From a virus, in IMG/VR virus record IMGVR_UViG_3300042890_000814, positions 1 to 24,740 of that record: DNA of 24,740 nt, one strand, 5' to 3'. Made by a program: the position numbers and the translations under genes. The notes beneath the pieces were generated by a model. The model worked only from the letters and a program-made list of their open reading frames with translations, ran no database searches and had not been told where the DNA came from. Shown one piece after another: positions 9,960 to 22,650 of this stretch (position 1 is the first letter of the stretch; each line of letters starts with the position of its first letter).

Positions 9960-12053
9960 TTAGATTGCAGGAATGTAAACCTCAATAATTTCAGTAACCC
10001 AAATACCGTACTTCCAGTGTTCGGCTTGACGAGATACTTCAAACCACCCCTCTACAAGGGTTGGGGGGATTGTCGCAGGGACGGATATTGTTTGGTTGTC
10101 AGGAAGAATAATTTCTATGGCGTCGTGTAGACACTTTGGGATAGACAGACTGAAAATAGTCTTCCCTATGGAGACGGATGTGGACGAACTAGTCGAAGAT
10201 GAGTTGCTGGTATTTGTCCCCACGGAGATACTACCACTTGTTCCCGTACTCTTAGAATAACTCGTACTTGTTTGAGAGCCATCGCTAATTGAGTAGTTAG
10301 TAGAATTAGACGTACCGAACTGGTACGAAGTGCCGGAGGAAGCCGAAGTTCCGCTACTTTCTGTTGTACCAGTACTCGTACTAGTACCAGAGCTCGTACT
10401 ACTACCAGACGAAGCACTTGCCGAAATACTTGAAGAGGTACTAGATCCCGATTGTGTTCCAGAATTACTACTTGAATTAGTCCCCTGACTATTACCATTA
10501 CTATCTTGAATAGTTGAACGGGTGATCGTAGGATCTCCCACGAGGGGCACACCACTATCTGATGTAGTAGTAATATCCTTCGAGCTACCAACACTTGAAG
10601 AAACCGATTCACTACTGCCCGAACTAGTACTCGAACTAGAGCCGGACGAAGTACTTGCACTGGTACTATTGCCAGTATTAAAATTATTAGAGGTCTGCTG
10701 ACTAGCCTGCGTACCTGAAGAAGAGTTGAAGCTAACGCCACTATTAGTACCGTTACTGCTAGATGACGAGTTGCTAGTACTTGAGCTATTGTTGGACGAA
10801 TTGGATGTACTGCTGCTCGATCCGCTGCTCTCGTTATTAGATTCGGAAGTGTTAGTGGACTGATTATTGCCCTCACTACTGGAGATCGAGATGCTCGTAC
10901 CCGACGATGTTGAGATCGTTTGCGATGAAGCCGTGTACTCGATTGCAGATTGGAACGACTCTGTGCCATAAGGCACACGAAGGTTTGTTGGATCGTAGTC
11001 GGCGGGTGTACCGAAGGAAAACTTACGAGTAAACTTCGCCTTGAGCGGACCATCAGGCACACGCTTAAATGTAGGTACGGCAACCCAACGCTCGGTGCCA
11101 ACGATAGCAATCGACTCAAGGATGTCGGGCAAATTCTCACGGCGAAGACCGTACCATACTTGATCTTCAGGCAATGAGACTAGTCTAGTCTGAGTCTTCC
11201 ACGAACGCCATTGGTCTTTTGGTTCAACCTCAACCGCGATAAGCTCTGCACCGTTTTGGGTAATCTCACCTTCAACTGAACCTGCCTCGACGATCTGGCG
11301 TGTGTAGTCGAATATCACACCGTAACGTGAGTCAATCTGATTTCCTTCAAGCGTCGGGTAGTTGGGATTCCCATTCTCATCTACAGGCGCACGAACGATA
11401 CTTTGGACACTTTTCCCGTTACCCAATGAGGTAGTGGAGGCTTCGATAATTCCAAAGCCTGTTTCTGATTGTAACCCTTCAGCGACGATATGGTCTCGTT
11501 TAGTAGCAAGAATGCCACCGAAGTCATTAGTAGTAAGATCGCTAATGGCTACGTCAGAGAGATCGACGTAGACATGCTTCTCCGTAACAAAAATTGAATC
11601 CAGTTCCTTCTCGCCTGTGCGTGATTGGATTTTCTCGAAGAACGTGTATGTGCCATTAAATACCCCAGCGGGAACGTCAGGCATTACAGTATCCAGTTCA
11701 GGGGATTCCTGAACAAAGTCGTCACGGAGCGTTAGATAGGTGCGAACAACGGAGTCGTACTTTACCCCTCTAATTTCAGTCTTGGAATACTCCCAGTTAT
11801 AGAGGTCTTGGTTGGCTCGATCCGCTGCGTAGAAGAATTCAAAGATCTCATTACGCTCGATGTCCACAGGTTTAATGTAGACTAGCTGGTGGTTAGGCCA
11901 CTTTACAGCATTAGGGTGTGGTGTGCCGTATGCAGGAAACTCGGAGCGGTTACAGTCTCGGATTTCGCTGAAAAGAATATCGGCAATTAAGGGCGTAGGC
12001 AGTATCTTACGATCCTGCCGATACGGAGCTTGGGGTAATTGAGAGACAGCCAT
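9960..12053 (-). CDS. Structural/tail protein with large Ser-rich insert
   Basis: A 697-residue protein if the ATG at 12053, four bases after the upstream stop, is used. The frame can extend to a TTG at 12098, but that would overlap the previous gene by 41 bases. The N-terminal ~380 residues are globular and contain a pattern I associate with a phage structural family (HPNAVKWPNHQLVYIKP, then YAADRANQDLYNWEYS near residue 75). About 255 residues (DNA 10170-10935) are then almost purely Ser, Thr, Gly and Asn. A conserved-looking C-terminal ~70 residues follow (LPDNQTISVPATIPPTLVEGW). No sortase signal, signal peptide or membrane segment is seen, so this is a virion protein rather than a host cell-wall adhesin. 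The insert is probably an extended stalk or linker and could be glycosylated. Confidence 0.65.
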   Translation of the reverse strand: MAVSQLPQAPYRQDRKILPTPLIADILFSEIRDCNRSEFPAYGTPHPNAVKWPNHQLVYIKPVDIERNEIFEFFYAADRANQDLYNWEYSKTEIRGVKYDSVVRTYLTLRDDFVQESPELDTVMPDVPAGVFNGTYTFFEKIQSRTGEKELDSIFVTEKHVYVDLSDVAISDLTTNDFGGILATKRDHIVAEGLQSETGFGIIEASTTSLGNGKSVQSIVRAPVDENGNPNYPTLEGNQIDSRYGVIFDYTRQIVEAGSVEGEITQNGAELIAVEVEPKDQWRSWKTQTRLVSLPEDQVWYGLRRENLPDILESIAIVGTERWVAVPTFKRVPDGPLKAKFTRKFSFGTPADYDPTNLRVPYGTESFQSAIEYTASSQTISTSSGTSISISSSEGNNQSTNTSESNNESSGSSSSTSNSSNNSSSTSNSSSSSNGTNSGVSFNSSSGTQASQQTSNNFNTGNSTSASTSSGSSSSTSSGSSESVSSSVGSSKDITTTSDSGVPLVGDPTITRSTIQDSNGNSQGTNSSSNSGTQSGSSTSSSISASASSGSSTSSGTSTSTGTTESSGTSASSGTSYQFGTSNSTNYSISDGSQTSTSYSKSTGTSGSISVGTNTSNSSSTSSSTSVSIGKTIFSLSIPKCLHDAIEIILPDNQTISVPATIPPTLVEGWFEVSRQAEHWKYGIWVTEIIEVYIPAI
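10170..10935 (-). repeat. Low-complexity Ser/Thr/Gly/Asn-coding tract
   Basis: About 255 codons are dominated by Ser, Thr, Gly and Asn with short irregular motifs such as SSGTS and SNSS. The tract is interrupted once near 10530-10590 by GVPLVGDPTITRSTI. Several Ser codons (AGT, TCG, AGC, TCT) are mixed, so the repeat is conserved at protein rather than DNA level. Confidence 0.9.
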
Positions 12054-12057
12054 TAGG

Positions 12058-14118
12058 TTAAGGATTGTAGCGAATGTAGCTAATAGTGTGCGAGTCAACC
12101 GTGTTGGAGCTATAAATTGTGAAGCCCGTTCCAGCGGTCTTCTGTACGGAAATACGATTTAGGGTAGACGGTGTATTAGTAACAAGCACATCACTAGCGA
12201 TTTTAAGTCTAGGAAACATTACATTAGTTTCAACACCATTGACATAGATAGACTGCGGAACTACTGTTGAAGGATACTCCAAGAGAGTTGGGTTCATTGG
12301 GAACTGTGGAAAATAGTTAACAAAGGTCGATGGCACGAATCCTCCATCAAACCAGTAGCACTTCTCGTTAGGCACTGTATTGAAATAAGGATTGTAATTT
12401 GAACTACCAACAACAAAAGAATCACCCTTTGGGGAATCAACACCCCAAGCAGACATTTGTAAGTTTCTAGGTATGATAGCTTTCATACCGCCAAGTTGTA
12501 TCGGATCAATAATCATAGTCCCACCCCTGCCCACCCCCCATGTATAAGCCTCCAGTACTCTAATCTTGTTACCGCTGTCCCTTGTGCAGTAAGCTAAATC
12601 ATATTGAGCTTCAACGTCGTAGTTCCAAAGGCCACGTTTTTTTAACATAACTTCAGATTCCCAGAACGAATGACCTATATCTACTGGGTCTGGGGGCCCA
12701 TCACCACCTCTGAATAGCGCAATAAAATCAGTAGCTGACACGGAATACGCTGCATCAGTAAAGAAAGAAAGCGCCGCGTCTAGTGCTTTTTCGTTATAAG
12801 GATCGAGCGCGTAGTACTTAGACCCAGTATACTCTACAAGTTCTGTGGCTACGACAACCGACCCACCGGAAGTATCTTTAATACACCATTCGATCACAAG
12901 ATCGTCAGCACTGCCCATAGCACCAGTAGAAGTTCCCATGAACTCCTGAGTTGCAACAACAATCGAAGACGTTGTAATCGCAGAGTCGGCAACTGTTGCC
13001 ACTCCACTATTCACCGTGACGCGACCGGACTTGAAACCTAAAGCATTTACAGCAAGAGGAGCAGTAACTGCGCCAGTTCCTCCTTGGGCAATAGCCACAG
13101 TAGGGAGGTCCGTCGAGGCAATCGTACGGAAAGTTGGGTTTGCATTGGCACCAGATACGGGTCCGGCGTAAAAAGTCTTCGTGACTTGGGGTGATACCGT
13201 GGTAAGAGAGTCTAGTTTGGTCTTATCAGTGGACGAAAAGTAACCGTTCTGAGAAGTCGTCGCAGCCTGAATCGACAATGCTGGAGCAGTAGTGCCCGTC
13301 TTAACTAATGGCGACGATACTGTCACATCAGTGATTGAAGCTCCCGCAGTAACCCCATTGAGTTTGGTCTTATCGGCAGCGGACATATAGCCCAATACCG
13401 AAGTAGTTGCGGTAGACGCCGTAAGACTATCCAGTTTGTTCTTATCAGCAGCAAGCATATAGCCATCCGTGCTGGTGGTTACCGCAGGTAGGCTGATAGT
13501 CGGGGCTGTGGTACCTGTCTTGACCAAAGGTGCAGCGACAGAGACAGTGCTAACGGCTGCACCGGAAGTAACCGAATCTAGTTTAGTCTTATCGGAAGAA
13601 GAAAGATAACCATTAAGGGTTGTCGTAGCTGCTGAAACCCCCAATGTTTGGATGCCGCCACTACTCACAGTAGTCAGTGGAGACGATACCGCAATGGAGT
13701 TTGCCGTAGCACCAGTAGTAATCGACGCTAACTTCTGAAATTGAGATGCTGTCATATACCCATCCGCAGTAGCGGATGAGGCTGGTAATCCAATCGTGGG
13801 GTTACTAGTTCCAGTTTTAGTTATCGGAGCAGAGACAGATAGAGACAGAATCCCGTTATCTATACCGCCAATAGTATTGATGATGTCGCTAATATCAGAC
13901 GTGTTATCAGCAATAGCTGTAGTATGACTTTCAAGCGTAGTAATATGTGCCGCAGAAGCTAGACCGCTAATAGCATTAGTAGCTAGCGGAATAGGGTCGG
14001 ACCCGCCTACTCCATGGGAGCTGGCGTGGGGCGCAGGAGTAGCTACGCCGACATCGGATAGCGTGATTGAGATCTCGTTGTCGCCGGAAACAGTAATTTG
14101 GTAGGGGTCGCTAGGCAT
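12058..14118 (-). CDS. Tail fibre protein with repeated shaft
   Basis: A 686-residue fibre. The N-terminus has HASSHGVGGSDPI near residue 31, a frequent phage-fibre motif. From about residue 95 to 330 the shaft is built from repeats of the form T-x-x-GYMSAADKTKLDSVT-x-GA alternating with SSPLVKTGTTAP, a common trimeric fibre pattern. FYAGPVSGANANPTF and IAQGGTGA near residues 335-365 are further typical fibre motifs. The C-terminal ~300 residues are aromatic-rich and unrecognised; they are the likely receptor-binding part. The ATG at 14118 lies four bases after the stop of a small adaptor-like gene, suggesting the two are made together. Confidence 0.88.
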   Translation of the reverse strand: MPSDPYQITVSGDNEISITLSDVGVATPAPHASSHGVGGSDPIPLATNAISGLASAAHITTLESHTTAIADNTSDISDIINTIGGIDNGILSLSVSAPITKTGTSNPTIGLPASSATADGYMTASQFQKLASITTGATANSIAVSSPLTTVSSGGIQTLGVSAATTTLNGYLSSSDKTKLDSVTSGAAVSTVSVAAPLVKTGTTAPTISLPAVTTSTDGYMLAADKNKLDSLTASTATTSVLGYMSAADKTKLNGVTAGASITDVTVSSPLVKTGTTAPALSIQAATTSQNGYFSSTDKTKLDSLTTVSPQVTKTFYAGPVSGANANPTFRTIASTDLPTVAIAQGGTGAVTAPLAVNALGFKSGRVTVNSGVATVADSAITTSSIVVATQEFMGTSTGAMGSADDLVIEWCIKDTSGGSVVVATELVEYTGSKYYALDPYNEKALDAALSFFTDAAYSVSATDFIALFRGGDGPPDPVDIGHSFWESEVMLKKRGLWNYDVEAQYDLAYCTRDSGNKIRVLEAYTWGVGRGGTMIIDPIQLGGMKAIIPRNLQMSAWGVDSPKGDSFVVGSSNYNPYFNTVPNEKCYWFDGGFVPSTFVNYFPQFPMNPTLLEYPSTVVPQSIYVNGVETNVMFPRLKIASDVLVTNTPSTLNRISVQKTAGTGFTIYSSNTVDSHTISYIRYNP

Positions 14119-14122
14119 CTTG

Positions 14123-14482
14123 TTAGACGTTATTGGTTCGGTTTTGGCGTACAGTTACGGTCCCTTCGAGTAGGCGGGTAGTCTTACCCCCACTAATCAT
14201 AAAGACATCATACTCATAAGCGATAGGCTGATTAAGTACTTTCGTTTGGGCTGCTGTTAAAGAGATCGTAGCCTTGCCGTCGGTGCCCCCACCAGTAAAA
14301 CCGATTGTGAACTGCAATGCTCTCTTCTTTGTCAAAGTTTCACGGACGTCGCCCGTAAAAGTAGCATCAGCATTGAGGCCATTGGTCAGGTCAATAACGG
14401 CACCACTATTATCCTTTAACGTCATTACTAACGCAAAGGTCGCAGCTCTATCGATAATCAGGTTGTACTTTCCGGCGATCAT
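14123..14482 (-). CDS. Small beta-domain adaptor protein (BppU-N-like)
   Basis: A 119-residue protein with strands typical of the Ig-like N-terminal domain of phage baseplate/fibre adaptors: YNLIIDRAATFALVMTLKDNSG, then GKATISLTAAQTKVL, a Y-x-Y-D-V strand, and LLEGTVTVRQNRTNNV at the end. It is a paralogue of the 111-residue protein at 18568-18903: both share YNL-x-I-x-R at the start, DG/GDGT-x-x-x-SL in the middle and EGxVTVxxNxTNV at the end. Each copy lies immediately upstream of a fibre gene. Role as fibre attachment protein is inferred from fold pattern and position. Confidence 0.6.
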   Translation of the reverse strand: MIAGKYNLIIDRAATFALVMTLKDNSGAVIDLTNGLNADATFTGDVRETLTKKRALQFTIGFTGGGTDGKATISLTAAQTKVLNQPIAYEYDVFMISGGKTTRLLEGTVTVRQNRTNNV

Positions 14483-14863: not shown

Positions 14864-16762
14864 CTAGTAAACAAGCCCAGCATTTACGAGATAATTTCCT
14901 ACGATAGTAACATTCGAATTAAATGTTTTATTCGAGCTTGCAGATGACGACAGAACAGTTCTTGCGCTATTGGCAGTAATTGAATTTGTTCCACTACTAG
15001 TATAGAAAAACGGATCACCGTGAAGTCGCAAAAGCTTGTTGGTTCCAGTTGTTGTTGTGAAACTTATGCACGGATTACTTGAATAAGTCATTGCACGCCC
15101 ACCCCTAATAGTTGTTAGGTTAGTTACAATACTATCCCCGTATTCAAATGAAAAGAATGTGCAATTATTAGTTGCATCAACAAGAGTTTCATAGTCAATT
15201 CCTAAAGTCCCACCAACAACTAGAAAGCATTTTGTTCCAAAGCATTGGATCGTCTGACAAACGCAACTGAACTGTGCGTAGGAATTGTTTGTTGGCATGT
15301 CAACCATTCTAGCGCAATAAGTAAAAGGAACTCTGTAATTTACATTGCTGCTGGTTCCAGCACAATACGCGATTGTTGAAGTCATAGCATAAACAGTTCC
15401 CGCTTCAACAACAAGCACACCAGTTGAAACGTCAAAGATTTTTGCGCTGTTGGAGATTGTCAGAATTGAATAGCATTCAATCGAACACAGTTGATTGGAA
15501 GTTGTGCCACCAGACTGCTGCCAGAATTTGGTTGTTGATCCTGAAACATTGAACTGACCACCCCCACTGATTACTTTGGATTGACCAACCGATAGAGTGA
15601 AAACGGGTGCGCTAGCAACACTACAGTTTACAACCACGCCCTCTTCAAGATGCAGGTTTCCTTCGTTATCAAGATTGATCGTGCTTGTGATCGAGTAGGT
15701 TCCAGCACGAACACGGACTGTGTCGCCAATAGCAGATGCAGTCATCGCCGCGCCAATAGTAGCGAACGGAATCGACATGCTGTATTTGCTAGTAGTTCCT
15801 CTTGTATCGTTTCCAGTTACAGCATCTACAAAGATTGTTCTGCCAGTGATTTGTTCAACAGACACAACTTTGTTCTTCCAAAGTTGTGTTGAATTTTCCC
15901 ATGTGAGGACTTGACCATCAGAGAGATTACTTATAGCAACGTCGTGCAGCTCGTTAAGCTCAAATCCATTTTGGACTTTAACGAAAATATCGGCAAGAGT
16001 ATTACCATTAATGCGTGTAACATACCCTAAAAACACTAAGTTATTTGGAGCTGTTGGCTTATTCGCTAAACCAAAAATCAATCCTCCAGCAGTTGTTGGT
16101 GATAACCAGATCGGATCACCTTCGACTATACCGTGACCAGACCCTAAGTTGATTGATAATCCAGTCAAATCACCGTCAGTTACCACATAACCAAAACCAT
16201 TTGTTGCGATATTTTGTAGCGCAATGCCGAGCGTCTTACTCGATGTTGATTCAATGTTGGCTTGTGCAAGTGTGACTAACTTGTTAGCTCCCGACGCGCC
16301 AGAAATATAAACGGCCTGCCCAGCGGTAATTGGCACACTAGCCTTAACGTAAATTTCTGAGTTCGTTACTGATCCATTCGCATTCTGAGTTAATGCAACG
16401 TATCCAGTTTTGTCTGGCAGGGTCCATGCTCTTGCTCCAGTCAACGTAGCGTTGTCAATGGTTCCCGTAAAACTACCATTAGGCAACAAGAATGCTCCAG
16501 CAGAAACATTGGAAGATGCATCGCGGATTGCAATAGTTGATGCAGTTGCAGACGTAGACCCTGATGTTGCGCCAGCAATGGTTGTTCCGTTGCCAAAAAT
16601 GTAACCAGCTAAATTTGTGCTTGTGCTGGTCGTGATTGTTCCGGATGCGCCAGCAGGGCCCGCAGGTCCAGTGGGGCCAACTGCTCCGTTTATGGTCAGA
16701 TGCGCGCTGTCTGTACCAGTTACAGTTAGTTTGTTCGGGGTGGTGGAAGGTGTGTTAGCCAT
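14864..16762 (-). CDS. Tailspike with collagen-like tip and beta-helix domain
   Basis: A 632-residue fibre or tailspike. It begins with a head segment containing a collagen-like stretch (GPTGPAGPAGASG, residues 29-41), then a shaft of short strands with motifs such as WTLPDKTGYVAL. From about residue 310, IFVDAVTGNDTRG, PFATIGAAM and GDTVRVRAGTYSI mark the entry into a right-handed parallel beta-helix of the pectin-lyase-like type. That fold is common in receptor-binding or glycan-cleaving tailspikes. No specific catalytic residues can be assigned. The ~96 bases between its stop and the next gene show only a weak GCACC/GGTGC hairpin. Confidence 0.82.
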   Translation of the reverse strand: MANTPSTTPNKLTVTGTDSAHLTINGAVGPTGPAGPAGASGTITTSTSTNLAGYIFGNGTTIAGATSGSTSATASTIAIRDASSNVSAGAFLLPNGSFTGTIDNATLTGARAWTLPDKTGYVALTQNANGSVTNSEIYVKASVPITAGQAVYISGASGANKLVTLAQANIESTSSKTLGIALQNIATNGFGYVVTDGDLTGLSINLGSGHGIVEGDPIWLSPTTAGGLIFGLANKPTAPNNLVFLGYVTRINGNTLADIFVKVQNGFELNELHDVAISNLSDGQVLTWENSTQLWKNKVVSVEQITGRTIFVDAVTGNDTRGTTSKYSMSIPFATIGAAMTASAIGDTVRVRAGTYSITSTINLDNEGNLHLEEGVVVNCSVASAPVFTLSVGQSKVISGGGQFNVSGSTTKFWQQSGGTTSNQLCSIECYSILTISNSAKIFDVSTGVLVVEAGTVYAMTSTIAYCAGTSSNVNYRVPFTYCARMVDMPTNNSYAQFSCVCQTIQCFGTKCFLVVGGTLGIDYETLVDATNNCTFFSFEYGDSIVTNLTTIRGGRAMTYSSNPCISFTTTTGTNKLLRLHGDPFFYTSSGTNSITANSARTVLSSSASSNKTFNSNVTIVGNYLVNAGLVY

Positions 16763-16790: not shown

Positions 16791-17324
16791 TCAGTACTTA
16801 ATTCGTAGTTCTCCTGTAGAGGTGCGGTAGACGGACCCAGTAGCTAGAGAAGCTGCTGCGGTATTACTTGCATAAACAGGCAAAGCAGATAAAATAACTG
16901 AAGCGTTAGAACTTGTAACGGGGCCGGTGAAAGTTTGAGTATCAGAGAAAGTTTGGGCGTTAGACGTGAGGGCTACAGTGCCAGAAAGAGGAGGCATTAG
17001 CCAATAGTGTCCGCTAACATCGTTTGTTTCCTGATAGTAAATATATCCATTAGCAATATTTGAATTATTTACATTTGAATTCAAGAAGTTAATAAAAGAA
17101 AACTCCAAACTTGGGTCAGCCTCCACAGTTAAACCTTTACAAAAAAGTCCTCCTGCTGAATCTCTAACGGCGATAGAGTTAGAAGAAGCCTCAGTATCGT
17201 TCTCTAGTGTGGCTAGGTGTGTCCACCTACCTTTCAGAGACTCGTAGAGCCACCTATTTAAGTTCTCATCTACCCACGGAGTTTCCGTATATGCTTGAGT
17301 GTTTGTAGGGAAAGTTAAAGTCAT
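16791..17324 (-). CDS. Short tail fibre protein
   Basis: A 177-residue protein from ATG 17324, one base after the stop of the protease-fibre gene (TAAAATG); an in-frame TTG at 17354 is a less likely start. It has SNSIAVRDSAGGLFCKGLTV near residue 48, PPLSGTVALTSNAQTFSDTQTF near residue 112, and the ending LPVYASNTAAASLATGSVYR-T-STGELRI, a familiar phage fibre C-terminal motif. It lacks the collagen-like head of its neighbours, so it may be a secondary fibre or a tip that joins another one. Confidence 0.7.
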   Translation of the reverse strand: MTLTFPTNTQAYTETPWVDENLNRWLYESLKGRWTHLATLENDTEASSNSIAVRDSAGGLFCKGLTVEADPSLEFSFINFLNSNVNNSNIANGYIYYQETNDVSGHYWLMPPLSGTVALTSNAQTFSDTQTFTGPVTSSNASVILSALPVYASNTAAASLATGSVYRTSTGELRIKY

Positions 17325-17325
17325 T

Positions 17326-18360
17326 TTAATTATGGGCCGGATCGTTAAATCCAATTACTGTAAACGGAGGTTTACCAGATACAGTAGATGCGTATGAGAG
17401 TAATAGGTTTATATTAGTGATGTATTGACCTATTGAGTCAAATGCTGTTGTATTGATCCTATCTAAATATAAAATATCATCTATTAAAATATATGAAGGA
17501 CATCCGCTATCCCCAAAGTATCGACCGTGGTAAAAATCAGGAAAAAAGGCATCGGGTGCATTTTGATAGTCGCCAACATAAACAACCCTATTATTTGGTG
17601 TGTTTTGGCTAGAATGTTGATTAACTACGTTGCCCATAGATACACATATTAAAGGCACAAGATTTTCAGCGAAGCTCGTTATTTTTTCTTGGGGTAAGAC
17701 TATAATTTTTTGTTTGCTAACCCATGATGGTAGAGGATTAGCAAAAACGTAAATTGAGACGTCACCTATAGGGAAACCTGTAAAATTACTTTCAGGGACA
17801 TCTGACCCTCTAATCCAGTGTGTGATTGTGTTTGTGTGGACCTCTCCTGTTACCGAAACATATTTAATAGAAATTGGGACTGGTTGGGGTCCGTTATGGC
17901 CGACACCTAATGCGTAGTAATCACTTAAAGCTAGTACCCCATAAGATTGAGTGTAGTTACCAGCTCCCATATGAACTCCGGTTAACTGGCTACGGAGATC
18001 GTTCAACCACATTGAGTTATTTGGAACGAAAGTAGAGCCAGTATACGCAGGGCCTATGTTAGAAAATAACGGTAGAGTTGTTGAAGACGCTACTTTGCCC
18101 TCTAATTTAGCATAAACTTGTGTTTTAATTCTATTACACCACTGCAATAATGAGGCTTCTTTTAGAGAACTTAAAGTAAGAGACGTTGGGTCAGATACCC
18201 ATTTCCCACCATAGAAGGATGAACTAATCCCCGTGTCTGTATCAAACCAAAGCGCGCCTTCTATTTGGTTTGGCGGAGGAGAACTTGAGTATATAGCTTT
18301 ACCTGACCCGCCGGAAGGACCAGCAGCTCGTTGTAAAGATATTTGTAGTTGACCGGACAT
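17326..18360 (-). CDS. Fibre protein with trypsin-like protease domain
   Basis: A 344-residue protein in two parts. Residues 1-66 are an anchor module with a GPSGGSG turn and YSSSPPPNQ...WFDTDTG...FYGGKWVS, almost the same as the 68-residue protein upstream. Residues about 90-320 match the chymotrypsin/trypsin (PA clan) order of catalytic residues: H155 in YYALGVGHNG, D200 in IGDVSIYVF, and S285 in GDSGCPS. The His-to-Asp spacing of 45 equals that of trypsin (H57-D102); the Asp-to-Ser spacing is 85 against 93. A strand pattern ILIDDILYL after the Ser also fits. Activity is inferred, not proven; the residue after GDSG is Cys instead of the usual Gly. It may cut a host surface protein or a virion component. 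Confidence 0.75.
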   Translation of the reverse strand: MSGQLQISLQRAAGPSGGSGKAIYSSSPPPNQIEGALWFDTDTGISSSFYGGKWVSDPTSLTLSSLKEASLLQWCNRIKTQVYAKLEGKVASSTTLPLFSNIGPAYTGSTFVPNNSMWLNDLRSQLTGVHMGAGNYTQSYGVLALSDYYALGVGHNGPQPVPISIKYVSVTGEVHTNTITHWIRGSDVPESNFTGFPIGDVSIYVFANPLPSWVSKQKIIVLPQEKITSFAENLVPLICVSMGNVVNQHSSQNTPNNRVVYVGDYQNAPDAFFPDFYHGRYFGDSGCPSYILIDDILYLDRINTTAFDSIGQYITNINLLLSYASTVSGKPPFTVIGFNDPAHN

Positions 18361-18575
18361 CAGTAGCGTTATGGTGCGAAAGAACTTAAAGTAAGGGACG
18401 TTAATTCAGATACCCACTTCCCACCATAAAAAAAGGACTTGATTCCTGTTTCTGTATCAAACCAAACTGCTCCGTCTGTTTGGTTTAGCGGGGGAGAACT
18501 TGAGTAAATAGCTTTGCCAGAAGCTCCTGCCGGACCAACAGGACCACTTAGCGTAAGTTTTAGAGAATCAGACAT
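18163..18575 (-). repeat. Duplicated fibre-anchor coding segment
   Basis: The first ~66 codons of the protease-fibre gene (18360-18163) and the whole 68-residue gene (18575-18369) are two direct copies. I count 45 identical residues of 68, with 38 of 47 between residues 19 and 65. The DNA is also clearly similar, with long shared runs such as GATACAGA, GGTGGGAA and TTACTTTAAGTTCT. Confidence 0.9.
18369..18575 (-). CDS. Free-standing fibre-anchor module (68 residues)
   Basis: The protein starts MSDSLKLTLSGPVGPAGASGK and continues YSSSPPLNQ...WFDTETG...FYGGKWVS, ending SSFAP. It equals the N-terminal anchor of the next gene and lacks any receptor or catalytic domain. It overlaps the adaptor-like gene by eight bases and is followed after eight bases by the protease-fibre gene. 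It may be a capping or competing anchor subunit, or a remnant of a fibre gene lost by recombination. The intact frame and good start-stop packing favour a real gene. Confidence 0.7.
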   Translation of the reverse strand: MSDSLKLTLSGPVGPAGASGKAIYSSSPPLNQTDGAVWFDTETGIKSFFYGGKWVSELTSLTLSSFAP

Positions 18576-18903
18576 TGGTAATGTTAGGGGTGACAGTTAC
18601 TTTACCTTCGATCTGCTTACTCAATAGGCTATTGGAATCAGCGAAGAAGAAATCCCATTTCAGTGACTTCTCAACCTGTAGACTTTTTGTCACAGCGGAG
18701 CTTAGGGAGAACTTAATTGTGCCGTCGCCAAGATTAGTCAGCGTAAATGAAGCGACTAATGGCTTCTTGTAGTCTTCTCGGATCTCCGCTTTACACGCGG
18801 AAAGGTTAAAGGGTACAGGTTCGTCAAAGGAGTCAGTGATACGCAACGTAAAGTTGAAGTCTTCGCCTCTTGCGATTTCTAAGTTGTAAGGTGCTGCGGC
18901 CAT
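18568..18903 (-). CDS. Small beta-domain adaptor protein (BppU-N-like), copy 1
   Basis: A 111-residue protein paralogous to the 119-residue protein at 14123-14482. It has YNLEIARGEDFNFTLRITD at the start, GDGTIKFSLSSAVTKSL in the middle, a WDFFFAD strand, and KQIEGKVTVTPNITNV at the end. The pattern resembles the N-terminal Ig-like domain of phage baseplate upper/fibre adaptor proteins. It directly precedes the anchor-only gene (8-base overlap) and the protease fibre, so it probably attaches these to the virion. The start is the ATG at 18903, without a Shine-Dalgarno motif. Confidence 0.6.
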   Translation of the reverse strand: MAAAPYNLEIARGEDFNFTLRITDSFDEPVPFNLSACKAEIREDYKKPLVASFTLTNLGDGTIKFSLSSAVTKSLQVEKSLKWDFFFADSNSLLSKQIEGKVTVTPNITNV

Positions 18904-18953: not shown

Positions 18954-19520
18954 CTACTGCTGAGTAGCTTCGTGGTGCATCGCATCTCTTCCCCAAAAAG
19001 CTCCGCCAGAAATCCAGCCCTCTTTCGCAAACATCTCCATCACTTCAAACGGCATATTGGCGGCGTGGGGCCAGCTTTGGAAATTTCCGTTGTAGTTCGG
19101 ATTCAAATCGATGGCGGCTCCTCTGGCGTGAAGAGAAGGACTAGAACCATTACGCATGAGACGGTTATTAAAACAACCAGCGTATTGTTTAAGTAGGGGC
19201 TTGAACTGGCTATTGCTAATCTCAGACAGCACATTATGCAGAGAATTAGCAACGCGAGTGTGACATCTGATTGTTTTGACGGCTTGTCCTTCATACTCAA
19301 CTCCTAAGCCAGTAACAGGAAGATTGACGAGCTTCGACTCATCTCCGGCAGCTCCGTAGAATGCAGACAGACTCTTCTGGTCAGTGGCTGGCCAGATGAG
19401 TGCGTTCGGCATGAGTTCACGGAGATGTCGCTTTGCCGCAGCAATGCTTTTAGGGCCAAAGAATCCGTCGGCGACAACACCGATCTTCTTCTGGATAGCG
19501 ACAATTTCGTCGTGGTTCAT
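18954..19520 (-). CDS. Endolysin, M15-type peptidase
   Basis: A 188-residue lysis enzyme. Residues 1-32 resemble a short peptidoglycan-binding helix set (AIQKKIGVVADGFFGPKSI). The C-terminal domain has the zinc-peptidase signature of the M15 family (VanY / L-Ala-D-Glu or D-Ala-D-Ala peptidases): R119, SLHARGAAID with ligands H131 and D138, and the third ligand H182 in DAMHHE with E184. It should cut peptide cross-links of the cell wall at the end of infection. No signal peptide is present, so it depends on a holin; two small membrane proteins lie just upstream. Its ATG shares a base with the stop of the 50-residue gene (TAATG). Confidence 0.88.
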   Translation of the reverse strand: MNHDEIVAIQKKIGVVADGFFGPKSIAAAKRHLRELMPNALIWPATDQKSLSAFYGAAGDESKLVNLPVTGLGVEYEGQAVKTIRCHTRVANSLHNVLSEISNSQFKPLLKQYAGCFNNRLMRNGSSPSLHARGAAIDLNPNYNGNFQSWPHAANMPFEVMEMFAKEGWISGGAFWGRDAMHHEATQQ

Positions 19521-21321: not shown

Positions 21322-22650
21322 TTAGGCAGCAGGGGTGGTGCTATCGCGCTTGAAGAGAATCACGTAACCGAATTCGGTACGGATTGGCTTCGTAGCGGAA
21401 GCAAGAACACCACGGAAGAATCCAATCGTGCCATCAGGGTTGAGGTCAACGGAAGGGATATTCTTCCAGTTGAACTTACCGCGATAGTTGACAGGATCGA
21501 AGGTCAGACCATTCGAGCCACTGATAGGCTCAGGGATCTGGCTTTCCATCACGTCTTGGTGAAGGATATAAGCAGCCTCGTAGTTAGCAGTCTCATATGC
21601 CGCGTTCAGCGAGATAATGCCGCTACTAGCGGTGTAAGGCTGAACACGAGTTACAACGCCAGTACCAGATGTAGTAGTAATGGTGAAGCGAGGAGCCATG
21701 TCGTCGATCAGGTGGTAGAAGCCACGGAAGGACTTCTCGATACCCAATGGAGCGATAAGGTCACTGACCTTAGCGTTGTTATAACGAACGTCGTCGCGGA
21801 ATCCGGCTTCGGTTTGCAGCACGTAGGATGCTTCCGAGGAGCAGATCAGACCGAAGACAGGACGGGCGTTCTCACGACCGTAGGCATTCGTACCAGCACC
21901 TGCGCGAACCAAACGAAAGTAAATCGAATCAAGGATCTTGTTCGAGATGTTTGCGTTCGGAACAATCGATGGGTCGTTGTCGGAATCAATGAGGTCAAGC
22001 GAAGCTGTGTTCAGACCTTCAACAGTAGCACCAACAGCATCGGTGGTACGTGCAGCCGTTCCAGTACTAAGGCAAGAAACAAGGTTAGCGCAGACGCGAT
22101 CATACTCATCACGATAACGCTCTTCCCACGAGTACTTCGTCGATTCCGTCATGGAGTCCATGATGGCGCGAAGTTGTTCCGTGCGATAAGCGGCGAAGCG
22201 AAGGTCTTCGACGTTGATCTTAGGCGACTCAACAGTGGCACGCTTCAGCGAGTACTGTTTAAGTTGACGACCAAAAGCAACAAAGCCTTTACCAGTGCCA
22301 GCACCGATGTTGGTGTCTTGTGCTCCGGTGAGGATCTGATCGAGGGTGCTAGCAGTAGCAATCGACTCAGCGGCAGCATTGCCAATCGACTGCCAGATCG
22401 AACTTCCAGCGAGCGTGCTACCGTTAGCAGTAGTCGTTGGGAGCGCACGATCATAGATCAGCGTGCCAAGGGTGTAACCCATGCCATCAGGGAAGGCGGA
22501 TTGTTTGATAAGGTCCATCCACGGGGAGACGTGGAGGGTGCGCTTGTAGATGTCTTGCCCGATACGGTTAGCCTCTTGCGTGAGGATCGTGTCGATTGCG
22601 GTGGTCGAATCAGTTGGATTCGAGAAAGTTTGTCCAGCGTTTACAGCCAT
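21322..22650 (-). CDS. Major capsid protein
   Basis: A 442-residue protein of the size and layout of HK97-fold capsid proteins of short-tailed phages. It has an N-terminal helical arm (AIDTILTQEANRIGQDIYKR, near residue 18), a long helix (LRAIMDSMTESTKYSWEERYRDEYD, near 165-190) and a C-terminal beta region ending GFFRGVLASATKPIRTEFGYVILF. The call rests on its place directly after the scaffold gene, its length and the strong hairpins around it. The ATG at 22650 follows an unusual 265-base leader without a Shine-Dalgarno motif. A long antisense frame on the plus strand is a coding shadow. Confidence 0.85.
   Translation of the reverse strand: MAVNAGQTFSNPTDSTTAIDTILTQEANRIGQDIYKRTLHVSPWMDLIKQSAFPDGMGYTLGTLIYDRALPTTTANGSTLAGSSIWQSIGNAAAESIATASTLDQILTGAQDTNIGAGTGKGFVAFGRQLKQYSLKRATVESPKINVEDLRFAAYRTEQLRAIMDSMTESTKYSWEERYRDEYDRVCANLVSCLSTGTAARTTDAVGATVEGLNTASLDLIDSDNDPSIVPNANISNKILDSIYFRLVRAGAGTNAYGRENARPVFGLICSSEASYVLQTEAGFRDDVRYNNAKVSDLIAPLGIEKSFRGFYHLIDDMAPRFTITTTSGTGVVTRVQPYTASSGIISLNAAYETANYEAAYILHQDVMESQIPEPISGSNGLTFDPVNYRGKFNWKNIPSVDLNPDGTIGFFRGVLASATKPIRTEFGYVILFKRDSTTPAA

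Follow-up and report, generated by a model that had tools for sequence, protein, structure and literature searches.

A putative trypsin-like serine protease domain on a phage fibre protein, from an unnamed S1-like family shared with PVC bacteria

A gene in a 24.7-kb virus contig (IMG/VR record IMGVR_UViG_3300042890_000814; the whole stretch of 24,740 nucleotides is referred to below as the window) encodes a phage fibre protein whose C-terminal, trypsin-like domain belongs, by sequence comparison, to a previously unnamed family. The reading that explains the observations best, to which we give a probability of roughly 0.58, is that this domain would be a swappable serine protease at the fibre tip that cuts a protein on the host surface. 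Below, we present the gene and its neighbours, the homology, predicted fold and conserved triad of the domain, its distribution among phages and bacteria, and the other roles that it could have.

Results

Gene, strand and neighbourhood

The original prediction had placed an open reading frame (ORF) at positions 17326–18360. The ORF exists; its strand, however, is minus, since the plus-strand reading of this interval contains many stops, whereas the minus strand is open from an ATG at 18360 to a TAA stop at 17326 and encodes 344 amino acids (aa). The features of the gene and its surroundings are as follows.

17326..18360, minus strand: fibre protein of 344 aa, anchor module plus C-terminal trypsin-like domain (ORF, profile and fold)
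18163..18360, minus strand: N-terminal anchor module, residues 1–66 (68% identity to the adjoining ORF)
18103..18174, minus strand: predicted helical linker, residues 63–86, joining anchor and protease domain (AlphaFold helix, model residues 2–25)
17329..18108, minus strand: trypsin-like (PA-clan, S1-like) domain, residues 85–344 (family profile, AlphaFold and Foldseek)
17896..17898, minus strand: codon of His155, H57-like (invariant, 62/62)
17761..17763, minus strand: codon of Asp200, D102-like (invariant, 62/62)
17506..17508, minus strand: codon of Ser285, S195-like nucleophile in GDSGCP (Ser in 61/62, Cys in one)
18369..18575, minus strand: anchor-only ORF of 68 aa, directly upstream of the protease gene and a repeat of its anchor module (80% DNA identity over 161 bases)
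18568..18903, minus strand: phrog_1084 protein of 111 aa that also matches, more weakly, phrog_3304 (L-shaped tail fibre assembly protein)
16791..17354, minus strand: probable small fibre protein of 187 aa, directly downstream of the protease gene
14864..16762, minus strand: fibre-like protein of 632 aa with a GPTGPAGPAG stretch at the N-terminus (weak PHROG match only)

The protease gene thus sits within a tightly packed minus-strand run of structural genes (18903–18568, 18575–18369, the protease gene, and the 187-aa and 632-aa ORFs). The true start of the 187-aa ORF is probably a downstream ATG, because its longest frame overlaps the protease gene. The anchor-only ORF stops right where the linker of the protease gene would start, and it has the appearance of a tandemly duplicated fibre anchor or of a domain-swap remnant. 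A second phrog_1084 protein is encoded at 14123–14482 (minus strand); this gene and the one at 18568–18903 each precede a fibre cluster, both products resemble, more weakly, the L-shaped tail fibre assembly protein, and the two are possibly paired assembly factors. Elsewhere in the window, 9960–12098 (minus strand) encodes a 712-aa protein with a very long, low-complexity middle rich in Ser, Thr, Asn and Gly and with no PHROG match, and 18954–19520 (minus strand), located between the capsid and fibre genes, encodes an endolysin with an M15-type D-Ala-D-Ala carboxypeptidase domain.

The anchor module consists of a brief Gly/Pro stretch followed by SSSPPxNQxxGAxWFDTxTGIxSxFYGGKWV. It had been said to be shared with another fibre gene, and this gene is the 68-aa ORF at 18575–18369, 68% identical to residues 1–66. 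Related modules (WFDTDTGxxxxYYDxxWV) occur inside collagen-like GPTGATG phage fibres (L181–L192). Judged by the duplicate next door and by these collagen-like fibres, the protein has an N-terminal virion-attachment module of the kind common to fibre proteins. Its identification as a fibre protein is supported by these modules, by the adjoining fibre and fibre-assembly genes, and by relatives in which the domain stands on recognised fibre N-termini. The GC content is 38.8% in the protease domain as against 46% in its own anchor and 47.6% in the window, which is the pattern of an acquired module.

An unnamed protein family

The window protein showed no match in Pfam (E 1), PHROGs, NCBIfam or the PDB sequences. 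A single-protein search of IMG/VR found no relatives, tblastn against GenBank phages gave chance-level matches only, and a consensus sequence used as the query had no match among GenBank phages. In addition, a single-sequence AlphaFold model of the protein was meaningless (pLDDT 34). With the libraries and this model empty, the initial case therefore rested solely on three residues in plausible contexts.

The GDSGNPAF motif of this consensus, which similar metagenomic proteins carry, was then scanned over IMG/VR as a degenerate DNA pattern. It picked out 63 stretches, nearly all of which encode one coherent protein family with the motifs N..W, ISPWNS, AGTLISPRHxxxAAHY, DxxIxxLDSDLP, DQEEKAL and GDSGNPAFLI. 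A family profile built from 56 phage proteins, with the window protein left out, gave the window protein 41 bits, with positions 7–246 of its 267 aligned (E 8.5e-12, computed in a set containing 2000 shuffles of the window protein). The best of these 2000 shuffles reached 4.2 bits, and none of the other ORFs of the window exceeded 5.1 bits. In the reverse direction, phmmer from the window protein found fibre-borne relatives (L026, E 3e-10; L011, E 5e-10). The homology extends over the full domain, including the upstream N..W element, of which N114 and W118 are conserved, and the GDSGxP loop. As to other patterns, a GDSGC-type pattern gave one contig (L066), unrelated to the family, and the 21 loci found with the GDSGGPAF pattern had ordinary S1-type proteases as their recognisable matches, with no new fibre family members. 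No further copies of the window's particular variant were found by the IMG/VR relative search or phmmer. Note that Pfam (at its cut-offs), PHROGs and NCBIfam all miss the family.

Profile and structural link to trypsin

A 15-member family profile searched against PDB sequences found mostly trypsin-family chains (best E 8e-4), and a 62-row profile matched trypsins (E 9e-5) as well as factor IX (E about 4e-4 to 1e-3) in alignments that cover the His, Asp and GDSG regions. In the search with S1 profiles that had been put forward as a check on the prediction, the window protein alone had no Pfam match; the family as a profile reached the solved trypsins. The best family member scored 17.2 bits (E 0.0047) against Pfam Trypsin (PF00089), under the curated cut-off of 20.6, and no scanned member passes it. 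Because this cut-off was unreached, we file the domain as PA-clan S1-like and not as a member of S1.

Structure prediction followed by a fold search had been put forward as well. An alignment-guided AlphaFold model of residues 62–344, which leans on the family alignment, had a pLDDT of 80.5 and a pTM of 0.82. Foldseek of this model against the PDB returned 819 chains at E≤0.001, and the best 50 of the 819 were S1 proteases, with a probability of 1.00 and a best E of 1.5e-8. The TM-scores to S1 structures were modest (0.4–0.6), and by these the barrels superpose only roughly on those of the mammalian enzymes. Among viral models (BFVD), the best match was A0A6J7XEP5, which is uncharacterised and comes from an uncultured Caudovirales phage (TMq 0.62); other matches included insect-virus serine proteases and picornavirus-type polyproteins. 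By its pTM and the Foldseek matches, the domain is predicted to have the double beta-barrel chymotrypsin fold. The agreement of the family profiles, phmmer from the window protein, and AlphaFold with Foldseek supports the original call of a trypsin-like fold and triad, and places H155, D200 and S285 within a predicted domain of genuine trypsin fold (PA clan, S1-like).

Putative catalytic residues

The three residues stand at the positions that had been given for them. Their order and contexts (xxxH, D-[IVL]-x-[IVL], GDSGxP) are S1-like, as had been proposed, and could be aligned through the family with solved trypsins. In the profile alignment, the histidine of GVGHN falls on that of AAHY, the aspartate of GDVSIYVF on that of DLTIYTL, and GDSGCP on GDSGNP. 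The H–D and D–S spacings are 45 and 85 in the window protein, with family medians of 38 and 81; those of chymotrypsin are 45 and 93. The invariant columns of a 28-sequence alignment (A1) are N114, W118, H155, D200, G283, D284, S285, G286 and P288. In a 62-sequence alignment (A3), with about 20% identity to the window copy, H155 and D200 were found in every sequence and S285 in all except one, which has Cys. That the triad and the GDSG-P loop are kept at about 20% overall identity, window copy included, points to selection on catalysis. The sequence with Cys is a cellular member (L103:1972-2904, plus strand; MAG RUG10884) that reads GDCGDP, with Cys replacing the nucleophilic Ser, and is possibly a cysteine-nucleophile variant of a trypsin-like enzyme.

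The Cys after GDSG had been called unusual, and in the alignment it occurs only in the window copy; its relatives have Asn (59/62), Asp (one) or Ser (one). The missing signal peptide had been called unusual as well; it is indeed absent, yet this is expected in a virion protein. The window copy is without the DQEEKAL motif and without the first of the family's two conserved histidines, with Tyr149 in its place. As the core-family combination of DQEEKAL and a second histidine (PRH) is not found in it, the window copy is a divergent branch, and not a core member, of the GDSGNP family.

Position of the domain in other phages

In one phage relative (L050), the N-terminus of a long-tail-fibre distal subunit (phrog_1699, E 8e-11) is followed by the protease domain, and Mtd_N is found in the neighbours of this protease gene, one of which also has an RCC1 propeller. 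The latter (L050:1555-3879, minus strand; 203-kb phage contig) is a fibre gene with an Mtd_N anchor and an RCC1-type propeller that adjoins the protease-bearing fibre. Another relative (L091) adjoins a tape-measure-like gene. The sole relative among GenBank phages, UOF78081.1 of Podoviridae sp. ct3Et533, is located in a structural region directly after a gene annotated as rhamnogalacturonan lyase. As judged by eye, the domain of phage-borne members is usually C-terminal or followed by a short tail, and the parts N-terminal to it vary (Ig-like, collagen-like, proline-rich or simple-repeat).

We also inspected 59 IMG/VR loci with the window's major-capsid candidate, which was called from its genomic place and by eye, without a library match. 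A recognisable protease copy, very divergent, was present only in L162. The varied N-termini, the GC contrast and this patchy occurrence in the capsid lineage give the domain the look of a swapped receptor-contact module. The L162 copy (L162:4379-5368, plus strand) is a divergent trypsin-like domain within the window's capsid lineage that has HDSGDA for GDSGNP and a different N-terminal module.

Cellular relatives and host

A search of 84,980 bacterial and archaeal species, one genome per species, gave 25 confirmed loci, 21 of them in Verrucomicrobia, Kiritimatiellae, Lentisphaerae or Planctomycetes and 2 in Paceibacterota. By eye, three of the 25 (L091, L097 and L102) are phage-contig-like in context; the others resemble lipoproteins or proteins for export, some of them encoded next to housekeeping genes, and signal- or lipobox-like N-termini were seen in the cellular relatives. 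Matches occurred in 19/195 sampled genomes of the phylum of the Verrucomicrobia locus, 3/149 of that of the Planctomycetes locus and 1/145 of that of the Paceibacterota locus, counts that the centre genomes slightly inflate, the single Paceibacterota match being the centre genome itself. On the tree, the labels phage and cell need 7 changes, at least 5 of which are forced by well-supported branches, indicating that the domain moved repeatedly between phages and bacteria. Note that no row diverges more than the window copy, whose branch length is 7.4 and whose placement in this tree is unreliable.

The major-capsid candidate had no match in 289 genomes of the phylum of the Verrucomicrobia locus or in 294 of that of the Planctomycetes locus, and no tRNA was found in the window. 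A PVC host for the window phage is put forward as a suggestion only. The capsid-like protein itself (21322–22650, minus strand) has 59 relatives in IMG/VR and no match in 50,697 GenBank phage records; to judge from this comparison, the window phage is an uncultured lineage without isolates.

Discussion

In the reading that we favour, the gene product would be a tail-fibre, receptor-contact protein whose first ~66 residues anchor it to the fibre. The predicted helical linker would join this anchor to residues ~85–344, a putative serine peptidase of trypsin fold with an intact triad and GDSG oxyanion motif. Assembly would take place in the cytoplasm, and on the virion the protein would be exposed at the tip of the fibre, where the peptidase, hydrolysing peptide bonds, would most likely cut a proteinaceous component of the host surface, such as a receptor, an S-layer or a surface-anchored protein, during adsorption. 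Such a role would parallel that of tailspike glycosidases acting on capsule, and the module would be exchanged between phages and exported bacterial proteins.

Other roles have to be weighed, and we take them in falling order of likelihood. The one that survives best, itself unlikely, is that of an adhesin in which the trypsin fold is re-used for binding and proteolysis is weak or lost. Chymotrypsin-like folds are known as re-used binders elsewhere, the nucleophile position holds Cys in one cellular relative, and the window copy could have lost activity because it is very divergent, is without DQEEKAL and has Tyr149 for the first histidine; however, the retention of His, Asp, Ser and the GDSG-P loop across the family speaks against such a loss. 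Self-processing, in which the domain would cleave the fibre that bears it or another virion protein nearby, at assembly or on contact, ranks next and is also unlikely. Virion maturation by phage proteases is common, and a domain at the C-terminus of a fibre is placed such that it could cleave in cis; on the other hand, no common cleavage partner is apparent for a domain that follows many N-termini unrelated to each other and is also found in exported proteins of cells. We regard as improbable a different hydrolase chemistry on the trypsin fold, for example an esterase deacylating surface polymers, since the solved neighbours listed by profile and fold are peptidases, even though the peptidases characterised so far are only distantly related to the family and no curated family covers it. 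Finally, a host-derived cargo gene for a secreted or intracellular protease, carried in the fibre operon outside the virion, would fit the homologues in PVC bacteria and a protease domain AT-richer than the rest of the window, but is highly improbable given the missing signal peptide and the in-frame fusion to a fibre module with a second copy in the adjoining ORF and with relatives among phage-fibre modules.

The favoured reading, a fibre-tip protease, can be compared with several known systems. With peptidase family S1 (PF00089, PA clan), the domain shares the His-Asp-Ser order, the local contexts, the fold by Foldseek and the profile match. Trypsins have Gly after GDSG, whereas the GDSGNP family has Asn and the window copy Cys; unlike S1 proteins, moreover, the family is fused to phage fibre anchors or found in exported bacterial proteins. 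Enzymatic tailspikes (endosialidase, pectate-lyase-like, K1 lyase) resemble it in carrying a swappable receptor-contact enzyme domain on a fibre; these attack glycans, whereas the window domain has a predicted peptidase fold. Peptidase_S74, the intramolecular chaperone of endosialidase, is likewise a C-terminal, serine-peptidase-like domain on phage fibres; it differs in being a chaperone that cleaves itself, in its Ser-Lys dyad and in a fold unrelated to that of trypsin. We rejected it here, as the window proteins scanned gave no S74 match in Pfam and the fold of the window domain matches S1. The closest viral proteins, A0A6J7XEP5 as the best fold match (13% sequence identity to the window copy) and UOF78081.1 of ct3Et533 as the GenBank family relative, are neither of them annotated as a protease.

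Phage tail enzymes are known mainly as glycan- or peptidoglycan-degrading, and while the fold is old and fibre enzymes are an established kind, what is new, within the libraries and literature searched, is an unnamed S1-like family as a putative fibre-tip module, which PVC bacteria also have. In the papers searched, a set with few subscription journals and no preprints, we found no phage fibre described as bearing a trypsin-like domain. One paper (PMC10783043) mentions a trypsin-like serine protease of Sinorhizobium T4-like phages and states no virion role for it.

More tentatively, and at somewhat less than even odds, the family may mark a widespread, undescribed class of phages whose fibre tip bears a trypsin-like protease, taken from a common pool with the exported proteases of the PVC superphylum, that degrades protein receptors or coats. 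Since Pfam (at its cut-offs), PHROGs and NCBIfam miss the family, a new profile would annotate many nameless fibre genes. If the proposed role of the module is true, the family would also allow phages to be recognised by sequence as those of Verrucomicrobia, Kiritimatiellae, Lentisphaerae and Planctomycetes, from which few phages have been isolated. Some phages would then pass protein barriers or use protein receptors by proteolysis, and the domain would be a proteolytic counterpart to the capsule-degrading tailspikes.
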